Shown one piece after another: positions 27,324-29,840 of a stretch of 64,000 bases of DNA. The notes under the pieces were generated by a model, which saw only the letters and a program-made list of their open reading frames with translations, made no database searches and was not told the origin of the DNA. Source of the stretch: Pseudacidobacterium ailaaui (GTDB lineage Bacteria > Acidobacteriota > Terriglobia > Terriglobales > Acidobacteriaceae). Positions within the stretch are counted from its first letter, which is position 1, and each line of letters begins with the position of its first letter. A program made the translations under genes and the position numbers. Where the stretch lies: contig NZ_JIAL01000001.1 of NCBI RefSeq assembly GCF_000688455.1, positions 1,271,001 through 1,335,000 of the forward strand, written 5' to 3'.

Positions 27324-27332
27324 ACACACAAC
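27324..27332. repeat. Target-site duplication, left copy
   Basis: ACACACAAC directly precedes the left end of the IS256-family element and is repeated exactly after the right end (28622-28630). Nine bases fits the 8-9 bp duplications of this family. Confidence 0.85.
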
Positions 27333-28621
27333 GGTGACGTAACTTCGATTGTGTAAAAGGCAGGAGGGTGTAAGGTGGCTTTGGCCTGACGAGCTAAAGC
27401 CGAACTTGAAAAGGAGCCTTACACCCATGGCGAAGATTGTATCGATCACCGAGCATTTTCAGCACTTCTTGACCAACCTGAAGGAGAGCTTCTGGGGCGA
27501 CCTGGAGCAGAAGACGCAGGTGGCCTGGAAGCGATTTCTGGAAGCGGAATCGGAGCGGTTGCGCGATCAGTATGCAGTTTGGGACAGCTACGAACGGGGA
27601 ACGCGCAAGCCGGGACAGTACCGTAACGGCTATTACGAGAGGGATTTTGTGACCCGCTTCGGCACCATCCGGCTGCGCGTGGCGCGGGCCCGCGGCAAGA
27701 GCTTTCTTCCCCGGGCGATGGAGAAGTTCCAACGCCGGGCGCCGGAGCTGGCCATACTCATCCGGGAGGCGTTTCTGCGCGGCATCTCTACCCGCCAGGT
27801 GGGTCGGCTGGTGGCCACTTTGACGGGCGAGACGATCAGTGCCCAGACCGTCTCGCGGCTGACGCGTGATCTGGATCAGGCGGTGCGGGAGTTTCATCGA
27901 GCCGCCCTGCAGGACGAATGGGCTTACCTGTTTCTGGATGGCGTGGCGTTGAAGGTGCGCCGGCCGGCGGGACGGCAGCATGTGCAGATGCTGGTGGCCT
28001 ACGGCGTGCGCCGGGACGGCACCCGGCAACTGCTCGGCTTTCTGCGCACCCAGGGTGAGGGTCAGGCTCACTGGGAGGCGTTGCTTGAGGATCTCTACCG
28101 GCGCGGTCTGAAGGGCGACAAGCTGCTGCTGATCGTCACCGACGGCTGCCCCGGATTGGCTGCCGCCATCCAGACCGTCTATCCCCGCGTAGCCCATCAA
28201 CGCTGCTGGGTGCACAAGATGCGCAATATCCTCGACAAGGTGCGCAAGCGCGACCATGATGCCGTCAAGCTGGATGCCCAGGCCATCTATCTGGCCGATA
28301 GCCGCCGTCAGGCCGAGGCTGCCGCGCGCGCCTTCAGCCGCCGCTGGCGCCGGGAATATCCCACCATGGTGCGGCAACTGGAACGCGATCTGCCCGACCT
28401 GCTGGTCTTCTACCATTTTCCCAAGCACCTGTGGCGCAAGCTGCGCACCACCAACATCATTGAACGCTGCTTCGTCGAAGTGCGTCGAAGAACCAGGCCC
28501 ATGGTTTGCTTCGTCAACGTGCAGTCCGTGGACCGAATCATCTACTCCATCTTCCAGAGATTCAATCTGGAATGGAAAAACCGCACCCTCCGCGTATTTA
28601 CACAAGCAGCTTGACGTCACC
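27333..28621 (+). mobile_element. IS256-family insertion sequence, complete (1289 bp)
   Basis: The ends are 25-bp imperfect inverted repeats: left 27333-27357 starts GGTGACGTAACTT, right 28597-28621 reads (reversed) GGTGACGTCAAGC; 19 of 25 positions match, including GGTGACGT and the family-typical TTGTGTAAA. One transposase gene fills the element and its stop codon lies inside the right repeat. A perfect 9-bp duplication flanks it. All signs indicate an intact, probably recent insertion. Confidence 0.92.
27427..28614 (+). CDS. IS256-family (mutator-type) transposase
   Basis: 395 residues from the ATG at 27427, which has AAGGAG upstream. DDE transposase with D in FLDGVALKVR, D in LIVTDGCPGLAAA, and E in the terminal TTNIIERCFVEVRRRTRPM signature. 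The C/H-region HQRCWVHKMRNILDKV is typical of the family. An N-terminal DNA-binding part (YRNGYYERDFVTRFGTIRLR) recognises the ends. No frameshift or internal stop, so it should be active. Confidence 0.95.
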   Translation: MAKIVSITEHFQHFLTNLKESFWGDLEQKTQVAWKRFLEAESERLRDQYAVWDSYERGTRKPGQYRNGYYERDFVTRFGTIRLRVARARGKSFLPRAMEKFQRRAPELAILIREAFLRGISTRQVGRLVATLTGETISAQTVSRLTRDLDQAVREFHRAALQDEWAYLFLDGVALKVRRPAGRQHVQMLVAYGVRRDGTRQLLGFLRTQGEGQAHWEALLEDLYRRGLKGDKLLLIVTDGCPGLAAAIQTVYPRVAHQRCWVHKMRNILDKVRKRDHDAVKLDAQAIYLADSRRQAEAAARAFSRRWRREYPTMVRQLERDLPDLLVFYHFPKHLWRKLRTTNIIERCFVEVRRRTRPMVCFVNVQSVDRIIYSIFQRFNLEWKNRTLRVFTQAA

Positions 28622-28630
28622 ACACACAAC
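28622..28630. repeat. Target-site duplication, right copy
   Basis: ACACACAAC, identical to 27324-27332, immediately after the right inverted repeat. Confidence 0.85.
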
Positions 28631-28665: not shown

Positions 28666-28791
28666 TGATTCGCCGCTGCCCCGCCGGGGCGTTCTTGACG
28701 GCAAATCTTCGCGCACGAGCCGCCGCTGACAGCTGTACTTGTGCGCTCTTGGAGTTGCGTATGTTCGATTGAGAATCGATGGAGAGTAATC

Positions 28792-29211
28792 ATGTCAAAC
28801 ACGATTGTTTGTATATCTTGTGTCAAGTCAAAACAAACATTCCCTTGCGCCGCGAAAGATATGTACATAAGCCCCTTGTTTCGCAAGATGCTTTTATACG
28901 CGCAACAACTCCGGCCACAAAAGATTTTTATTCTATCGGCTGAATACGGACTTCTTAAGCCGGGCGACGTGATTGCCCCTTACGAAAAGACGCTCAAGAC
29001 CATGAGCACCTCAGAAAGATCAGCATGGGCGGAGAAGGTTCTCTCAAGGCTTCGCCAGGAAGCAGACCTGCAAGTGGACAAGTTTATCTTCCTTGCAGGT
29101 GCGCCATACAGAGAGAACCTTGTGCGCCATATCAGGCACTATGAAGTGCCGATGGAAGGGTTGTCGCTTGGACGCCAACTTCAATGGCTGGCTGAGAGGC
29201 TGTGCACATGA
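28792..29211 (+). CDS. DUF6884 domain protein
   Basis: 139 residues from the ATG at 28792, with GGAG about 8 bases upstream. The sequence matches the DUF6884 pattern: VCISCVKSKQTFPCAAKDMY, SPLFRKMLLYAQQL, IFILSAEYGLLKPGDVIAPY and a late FIFLAGAPYRENLV. The fold may be related to the YaaA/nucleoside-processing type, but no activity is established to my knowledge. It overlaps the next gene by ATGA, so the two are made together. Codon use is less GC-rich than the neighbouring metabolic genes and the pair sits between an IS element and a decayed region, which suggests acquisition by transfer. Confidence 0.72.
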   Translation: MSNTIVCISCVKSKQTFPCAAKDMYISPLFRKMLLYAQQLRPQKIFILSAEYGLLKPGDVIAPYEKTLKTMSTSERSAWAEKVLSRLRQEADLQVDKFIFLAGAPYRENLVRHIRHYEVPMEGLSLGRQLQWLAERLCT

Positions 29212-29840
29212 GCGTATGCCAATTCCTACATGAGAGATTAAGGGAATTACCTCGTTTTAAGGCTGATTACGATCCTCGGGAAATTCCTGAAAACGGCCTG
29301 TACTTTGTCTTTGAGAAAGACGAGGCCGCGCATAACGGCGAACGCATCGTCAGAGTCGGGACGCATACAGGCCAAAACAACTTGCCGAAACGCCTGAAAG
29401 AACATCTCTACACGATGAACAAGGACCGCAGTATTTTCAGGAAGCATGTCGGCAGGTGTCTTCTTGCGCGGCTGGGTGACCCGTTTTTGGAATCCTGGGA
29501 AATCGACCTGACGACGCGACAAGCGCGTGCGAAGTTTGAGCACTTGGTCGATAGGGAAAGGCTGGATGAAGTCGAGCAGGAAGTCAGCGCCTACATGAAC
29601 GCCAACTTTTCCTTTGTCGTTTTGCGTGTGGACAACAAGGCCGACAGGCTTGCGGCGGAGTCGGGCATTTTGAGCGTCATTGCCGCCTGCGACGGATGCC
29701 GCGCTTCGGATTCGTGGCTCGGACGGTATCACCCAAGCGCTGCAATACGCGAAAGCGGCCTGTGGAACATCCTGGGGCTTAAGGAAACGCCCATTACACA
29801 AGCCTTTGCAGAAAGGCTGACTTCCACTGGAGCCTTGTAG
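29208..29840 (+). CDS. GIY-YIG-like nuclease domain protein
   Basis: 210 residues from the ATG at 29208 (a GTG six bases earlier is possible but the ATGA overlap favours this start). A GIY-YIG-like core is visible: G30-L31-Y32 (IPENGLYFVFE), then R49-V50-G51-T52 in place of YIG, R62 in LPKRLKEHL as the catalytic arginine, and E151 in RLAAESGI as the likely metal-binding glutamate. Family members cut DNA with one divalent metal. Spacing between R62 and E151 is longer than in minimal domains, so the fold may carry an insertion. Paired with DUF6884; role in genome defence or element maintenance is inferred from context, not proven. Confidence 0.68.
   Translation: MSVCQFLHERLRELPRFKADYDPREIPENGLYFVFEKDEAAHNGERIVRVGTHTGQNNLPKRLKEHLYTMNKDRSIFRKHVGRCLLARLGDPFLESWEIDLTTRQARAKFEHLVDRERLDEVEQEVSAYMNANFSFVVLRVDNKADRLAAESGILSVIAACDGCRASDSWLGRYHPSAAIRESGLWNILGLKETPITQAFAERLTSTGAL

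Follow-up and report, generated by a model that had tools for sequence, protein, structure and literature searches.

A DUF6884 gene coupled to a variant GIY-YIG-like nuclease gene: a possible type IV-like restriction module against 7-deazaguanine phage DNA

What is the function of two small, overlapping genes that lie beside an insertion sequence, and could they form a defence module? We addressed this question for a locus of Pseudacidobacterium ailaaui, using a 64,000-nucleotide stretch of its genome (the window). The features of the locus, including the upstream gene ORF A and the downstream gene ORF B (hereafter A and B), are listed in Table 1. As a preliminary description of this DNA had noted, the two genes overlap by ATGA, and A has a ribosome site of its own, which direct reading of the sequence places 5 bases before the ATG. 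The same description knew of no system with this pair. PADLOC, however, holds models for both proteins, PDC-M57A (E 4.5e-57 against A) and PDC-M57B (E 2.3e-85 against B), and the window's A and B match both of them as two adjacent genes. We take PDC to mean phage defence candidate, and PDC entries reportedly derive from a preprint that dealt with genes lying within defence systems. As far as we found, the PDC-M57 entry consists of the model library only, and a literature search with bioRxiv and most subscription journals outside its reach found no printed mechanism or paper for it. The A-B pair is already known as PDC-M57; a 7-deazaguanine target is a new proposal of this analysis, and the link of viral DUF6884 proteins that lack B to 7-deazaguanine genes is also new here.

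Table 1. Features of the A-B locus, in positions of the window
Feature	Position	Strand	Basis
IS256-family insertion sequence, separate from the pair	27333..28621	+	Transposase profile, inverted repeats, target duplication
GGAGAG, ribosome-binding-site-like, 5' of A	28781..28786	+	Read from sequence
ORF A, DUF6884 protein, 139 aa, PADLOC PDC-M57A	28792..29211	+	Pfam and PADLOC profile matches
ATGA overlap, A stop / B start	29208..29211	+	Sequence
ORF B, 210 aa, PADLOC PDC-M57B, variant GIY-YIG fold	29208..29840	+	PADLOC, predicted structure, residue counts

The region had been taken for a decayed mobile one, a view that the insertion sequence upstream of A does not bear out. The transpos_IS256 profile matched its transposase frame nearly from end to end (E 8.9e-96, positions 8-333 of 338), the terminal inverted repeats (27333-27370 and 28584-28621) are 71% complementary, and identical 9-bp direct repeats, ACACACAAC, flank the element at 27324-27332 and 28622-28630. 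The element ends about 170 bp upstream of A. Because the target duplication encloses the insertion sequence only, IS256 is a separate element and not the carrier of the pair; A and B do not lie between its ends as passenger genes, and the suggestion that they serve to maintain the element finds no support. In the one same-genus genome drawn, B was absent. The DUF885-like and carboxylase-like genes (assigned by eye) that flank the locus were kept there with a different sequence between them, indicating that the site of the pair is variable, and no exact junction was found.

The assignment of A to DUF6884 was confirmed by the Pfam search, in which PF21818 matched at E 2.1e-46 with 157.9 bits against a cut-off of 30. 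Weaker matches were obtained with the YaaA profile (E 6.7e-5, under its cut-off) and with the PADLOC models of DpdC (E 3.9e-4), and the CxxxK and LSAxxG motifs of the DUF6884/YaaA superfamily are present. In an alignment of 59 rows, restricted to unfused A and without the most divergent ones, C10, K14 and Y25 were nearly invariant and S49, A50, G53, Y64, T67, L68, W79, G103 and Y106 invariant. No PDB sequence matched A in a phmmer search. We examined the fold in L028, a natural A-B fusion homologue whose predicted structure reached a pLDDT of 95.6. With this fusion model, Foldseek by itself found nothing at E 0.001, and VIA-align, a re-alignment of Foldseek's own candidates, recovered YaaA: the A half aligned with E. 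coli YaaA (5caj) at Z 9.4 over 126 residues (rmsd 3.0) and with AF0587 at Z 8.2, while the second half aligned with UvrC at Z 5.5. The model of this homologue indicates that the family of A has the YaaA fold.

Pfam still labels the function of DUF6884 as unknown, and its authors, in a passage of PMC11701544, mention the CxxxK and LSAxxG motifs and a DNA-binding cleft. One relative with a described chemistry is DpdC. A statement in PMC11888242 cites dpdC as an example of DUF6884, and the part of PMC12839542 that deals with DpdC classes it in DUF328/PF03883, the YaaA family, and describes its hydrolysis of dPreQ0 in DNA to dADG. With DpdC and YaaA, A shares profile and motifs, and the A half of L028 shares the YaaA fold. 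DpdC, however, is described as lying inside the Dpd modification-restriction cluster, whereas A is paired with a GIY-YIG-like nuclease.

For B, the proposed likeness to GIY-YIG nucleases held at the level of structure and was marginal at the level of sequence profiles. Nothing in Pfam scored above its cut-off; the top match was DUF123 (E 0.021), and PF01541 was not reported. Comparison of B with GIY-YIG by hhalign gave a probability of 8.9 over 15 columns, against a maximum of 1.4 in 20 column shuffles, a comparison weakened by the wrong-frame rows L128, L140 and L153 (recognized by eye) in the B set. No PDB sequence matched B in a phmmer search. The AlphaFold2 model, built from 83 sequences, had a pLDDT of 96.2 and a pTM of 0.91. 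Foldseek alone found no match to it at E 0.001. When 437 Foldseek candidate chains were re-aligned with VIA-align, nine entries reached a Z of at least 2, and all nine were GIY-YIG nucleases. The best was the GIY-YIG domain of UvrC (Z 5.4, 85 residues, rmsd 2.7); the 5hmC-specific PD-T4-3/CMoRE followed the same fold at Z 4.3 over 87 residues, and R.Eco29kI and the Slx1-Slx4 nuclease were also among the nine. These Z values are moderate. The model thus supports the description of B as a variant GIY-YIG nuclease fold.

In the B model, two strands and a helix are followed by a helical stretch and then by a strand and a further helix. Y32 belongs to strand 1; helix 1 carries R62 and H66, and the helix that follows strand 3 carries E151. 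G51 is counted with these four among the residues of the variant GIY-YIG fold. R62 and E151, which the preliminary description had singled out, were identical, together with H66, in all 83 rows of the alignment (the window's B and 82 relatives, with L097 set aside), and Y32 was found in 82 rows, the remaining row having a gap. Judged from the order of elements in the model, R62 and E151 are candidates for the catalytic Arg and Glu of GIY-YIG enzymes. Fold and Tyr/Arg/Glu candidates are common to B, UvrC and R.Eco29kI. B differs from both enzymes in residues 68-133, a long and largely helical segment that separates helix 1 from strand 3, and in Arg49, which takes the position of the YIG Tyr in 82 of 83 rows. 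Since only the GIY tyrosine is kept, we describe B as a GIY-YIG-like, non-canonical member.

The pairing of A with B recurs far beyond this locus. Single-protein scans of genomes and viral contigs found no relatives, and alignment-based searches were needed; a tblastn search of the phage collection with B also gave no match. Species genomes yielded 233 relatives of B, and 80 of these loci were fetched and examined. A was adjacent or fused to B in 68 of the 80: just upstream in 60, fused in six, and following B in two. In one further locus (L059) A was present and the B frame was not recognized, and in the other 11 there was no adjacent A. Among these 11, L053 has a shortened B with A at a distance of 0.6 kb on its upstream side, L055 and L091 are located at the ends of contigs, a weak trace of A precedes B in L084, and the rest apparently hold B alone, so that no A was found for 10 of the 80 B genes, two of them at contig ends. 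Where A precedes B (63 loci, 60 cellular and three viral), the overlap between the start of B and the stop of A was 8 nt in 29 loci and 4 nt in another 18, together 47, under a start-picking rule that favoured ATG and starts near -4. Furthermore, the distances among A proteins were correlated with those among B proteins (r 0.544, 61 pairs), a value that none of 2,000 permutations reached. The A profile used had been rebuilt without A-B fusions, which had contaminated the first one. Together, these data are strong evidence that A and B occur together beyond chance.

B may also act without A, as the loci lacking A and the plasmid loci suggest. Six B loci were on plasmids: A was adjacent in one (Deinococcus), an A-like gene lay within about 3 kb in three, and none was seen in two. 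In three loci without A, the B gene begins 1-4 bases inside the end of an unrelated gene (L032 300-1714, L063 4593-6034, L070 7417-8624); by eye, these upstream genes are alpha/beta-hydrolase-like, glutamate-racemase-like and acetyltransferase-like, respectively. At L092 (1271-2765), B is overlapped at its end by another ORF, in which GIY-YIG-like motifs can be recognized by eye.

Within the phylum the pair is rare. Of 396 genomes, 4 had B and 18 had a DUF6884 match at E 0.001, nine of which were over the cut-off; some of the weaker matches resembled YaaA itself by eye. All four B genomes have a small A-like neighbour beside B. It matches DUF6884 in G000 (the window genome), G224 and G322, below the cut-off in the latter two; in G022 the likeness to A was seen by eye only, and PADLOC gave no match. 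A whole-genome search found A and B once each in the window genome. On a wider scale, the B tree of 79 rows (54 from bacteria, 24 from archaea and that of the window, with four viral rows excluded) spans 26 named phyla, 11 rows being unplaced, and the labels change 8 times for domain and 38 times for phylum. This scatter would fit spread by transfer.

A possible defence role had been proposed for the pair, and its siting bears on this in part. Several loci place it among restriction genes: with a type I specificity gene on one side and a restriction gene on the other in L039, between a type I specificity gene and a restriction-gene fragment in L053, ahead of HsdM, HsdS and HsdR in L093, beside HsdM, HsdR and PrrC homologues in L099, and clustered with an Eco57I-type methylase and a PLD/helicase protein in L015. 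A location in defence islands as a rule did not emerge. We compared samples of near neighbours (130 of 222, of which L053:9822-12203 was not aligned, leaving 129) and far neighbours (130 of 239) for defence families, taking the best 25 of 198 and the best 25 of 153 matching. The commonest of these, a type I methylase model, matched three of 129 near and one of 130 far proteins (Fisher p 0.37), the single far match probably being L039's own HsdM. The enrichment of known defence genes around the pair is weak, and few neighbour families recur among the B loci.

The clearest indication of a substrate came from DUF6884 proteins in viruses. We collected 129 viral relatives and kept 80 of their loci; with some contigs fetched again, 73 distinct viral A proteins were present among 87 loci. 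Where viral A stood without B, 21 of 68 loci had QueC within the stretch that was fetched, and in 16 of these 21 it overlapped the DUF6884 gene. In phage records at large a QueC match occurred in 323 of 50,697, a contrast that is indicative, the collection and search mode being different. A homologue of QueC, QueD, QueE or DpdA lay within 3 kb of 28 of 61 distinct viral A proteins without B, compared with one of the 12 that have B (p 0.02 by Fisher's test). L174, L179 and L180, viral loci where B lacks A, are outside the 12. Among cellular B loci the count was two of 79, and the two matches were weak (24-25% identity). Since viral and cellular loci are sets of different kinds, their contrast is weaker than its p value. 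The remaining 33 of the 61 viral A proteins without B had no 7-deazaguanine gene within 3 kb. In summary, DUF6884 alone accompanies 7-deazaguanine synthesis in many viruses, and nuclease-tied DUF6884 is mostly without it.

Individual viral loci illustrate this arrangement. L235 carries, in this order, two DpdA-like genes, QueC, DUF6884, QueD, a radical SAM (QueE-like) gene and FolE, and in phiFN37 a queuine ribosyltransferase is followed by a DUF6884-type gene and a queuosine precursor transporter. HRTV-29 gp32 (L261 4007-5132), annotated as peroxide stress protein YaaA, is of DUF6884 type and overlaps DpdA; a passage of PMC8651126 mentions both YaaA and DpdA. Perhaps gp32 is a DNA-modification gene and not a stress gene. 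In five of seven phage records (Kronos, BDU-MI-1, ChaoS9, Mx4 and Naby), most of whose genes are unnamed, no 7-deazaguanine gene was annotated nearby. In viral loci such as L212, L214, L235, L246, L251 and others, DUF6884 without B often overlaps QueC and stands in preQ0/DpdA operons, which makes it a likely, as yet unassigned step of phage 7-deazaguanine DNA modification.

Related arrangements also occur outside this set. In the acidobacterial L106 (1087-3228), DUF6884 is fused to a weakly matching TGT domain, with a QueD-like gene adjoining. Three plasmid loci with DUF6884 and without B were opened, and they showed a Dpd neighbour (Variovorax), another GIY-YIG gene (Tolypothrix) and neither (Aromatoleum). 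In the Variovorax plasmid (L264 4937-6504), type I-E cas genes are closely followed by an overlapping pair of DpdB and DUF6884 genes. In the Tolypothrix plasmid (L123 3147-4474), an annotated GIY-YIG gene, perhaps of another GIY-YIG family, precedes DUF6884 in reverse order, near a NACHT NTPase. Among the B loci, a clear QueC was seen in the viral contig L100 (4701-8701) alone, where QueC, an A-B fusion, a SIR2_2-domain protein and a protein resembling nucleoside deoxyribosyltransferase (by eye) stand in a row.

Twelve of 22 tabulated A residues, the same ones named above from C10 to Y106, did not vary among the 21 viral A proteins linked to QueC, and each was kept in 58 or more of the 59 PDC-M57 A proteins. 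The 47 other viral A proteins also keep nearly all twelve, except for T67 (34 of 47), so this sharing singles out no substrate. PDC-M57 A proteins mostly form their own cluster apart from viral A, with 5 label changes against a shuffled mean of 42.

We tentatively read A and B as a two-component, widely scattered, nucleic-acid-targeting module, most likely one of type IV-like restriction against 7-deazaguanine phage DNA, and regard this as a good possibility that stops short of being probable. The narrower proposal, in which PDC-M57 restricts 7-deazaguanine phage DNA and the host joins a GIY-YIG nuclease to a DUF6884 protein, from a family that phages have in 7-deazaguanine operons of their own, and so turns a phage shield into a target, is somewhat more doubtful. 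In the restriction reading, a YaaA/DpdC-type pocket of A would recognize, in the DNA of an invading phage, a 7-deazaguanine such as dPreQ0, dADG or dG+, and A would probably flip the modified base out. B, in contact with A, would cut the modified DNA through its variant site of Y32, R62, H66 and E151. In a sub-variant, A would excise the base or act on its nitrile, and B would nick the product. That cutting would be restricted to modified DNA we infer from the company kept by DUF6884 proteins without B.

The restriction reading draws on the tight coupling of the genes, the natural fusion, the two folds, the invariant candidate catalytic residues and the viral 7-deazaguanine link. A putative modified-guanine reader together with a nuclease fold, at loci where no base machinery was found, fits modification-dependent restriction. 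CMoRE would be a mechanistic precedent by analogy: it is described as a type IV GIY-YIG enzyme with a modification-sensing domain, for which its authors state that they found no homologue (PMC12923530, in the passages on this enzyme). Like CMoRE/PD-T4-3, the A-B pair would combine a GIY-YIG nuclease with a modification-sensing part, sensing by A being our proposal; CMoRE, however, is a single protein directed at 5hmC/5ghmC, whereas B has a DUF6884 partner that is usually encoded by a separate gene. Several observations count against the restriction reading: the weak enrichment of known defence genes, Arg49 in place of the YIG tyrosine, the marginal profile evidence and moderate Z values for a GIY-YIG fold, the 33 of 61 viral A proteins without a 7-deazaguanine gene nearby, the fact that the 7-deazaguanine link belongs to DUF6884 proteins without B, and the absence of A for about one B in eight. 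A defence role for the pair is plausible.

DNA repair is the main rival to the restriction reading. A would find an abasic site, a ribonucleotide or a damaged base, and B would nick beside it as UvrC does. Repair is raised as a possible DUF6884 role in a passage of PMC11701544 through B. subtilis YfjM, a DUF6884 protein that is placed there among the interactors of abasic and RNA-base lesions and has a base-flipping AlphaFold3 model. It is also consistent with the UvrC nuclease domain as the closest fold of B and with the absence of a clear enrichment of known defence genes around the pair. Records of B relatives, moreover, include Nanoarchaeota, Patescibacteria and the like, which are small-genome lineages. 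A core repair gene, on the other hand, would not be expected to be as patchy within the phylum, missing from the same-genus genome drawn, or to change phylum label so often over its tree, and some copies sit within restriction loci; we consider repair unlikely, although it deserves serious attention. Rather unlikely, too, is a nuclease defence or abortive infection that does not involve 7-deazaguanine, in which A would sense another modification or a phage cue and B would degrade DNA or RNA. The existence of a PADLOC entry for the pair and the restriction neighbours at several loci agree with it, as does CMoRE as a GIY-YIG restriction enzyme described for another base, but nearly half of the distinct viral DUF6884 proteins without B (28 of 61) adjoin one kind of base chemistry.

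Two further explanations appear much less probable. The pair, or B alone, might be a selfish, homing-type element that spreads by chromosome cutting. Homing endonucleases include GIY-YIG folds, the distribution of B is scattered and crosses domains, and the B genes of L032, L063 and L070 start inside the ends of unrelated genes. Homing genes reuse a target, however, and the neighbour families of B seldom recur between loci; the natural fusion with A and the A-B distance correlation point instead to a joint function, which makes a selfish element improbable. Finally, the pair could be a small Dpd-like restriction-modification system, in which host DNA would carry a 7-deazaguanine mark made or matured by A, and B would cut unmarked DNA, as is suggested by DpdC, which is placed in the DUF6884 and YaaA families and is described as working in such a system (statements in PMC11888242 and PMC12839542). 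No DpdA homologue was found beside B in loci L007-L100 with five phage-type probes at E 1e-4, a search that could miss a divergent DpdA, and the window genome has a single TGT locus by PF01702, outside the window, matched in two pieces (G000:C1:1752620-1753674), possibly owing to a frameshift or a sequencing error. The DpdA-like protein of L235 has no Pfam match, which shows that a divergent DpdA can escape both the probes and PF01702. Even so, we regard a Dpd-like system as very improbable.

7-Deazaguanines are described as shielding phage DNA from host restriction (in a passage of PMC6884629, where the coliphages 9g and CAjan are named as having 7-deazaguanine DNA). If the restriction reading of the A-B pair is true, a dedicated host counter-weapon would close this step of the arms race against 7-deazaguanine phages. 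The pair would then be a candidate reagent for mapping 7-deazaguanine bases, and DUF6884 would gain a testable role in both phages and their hosts.
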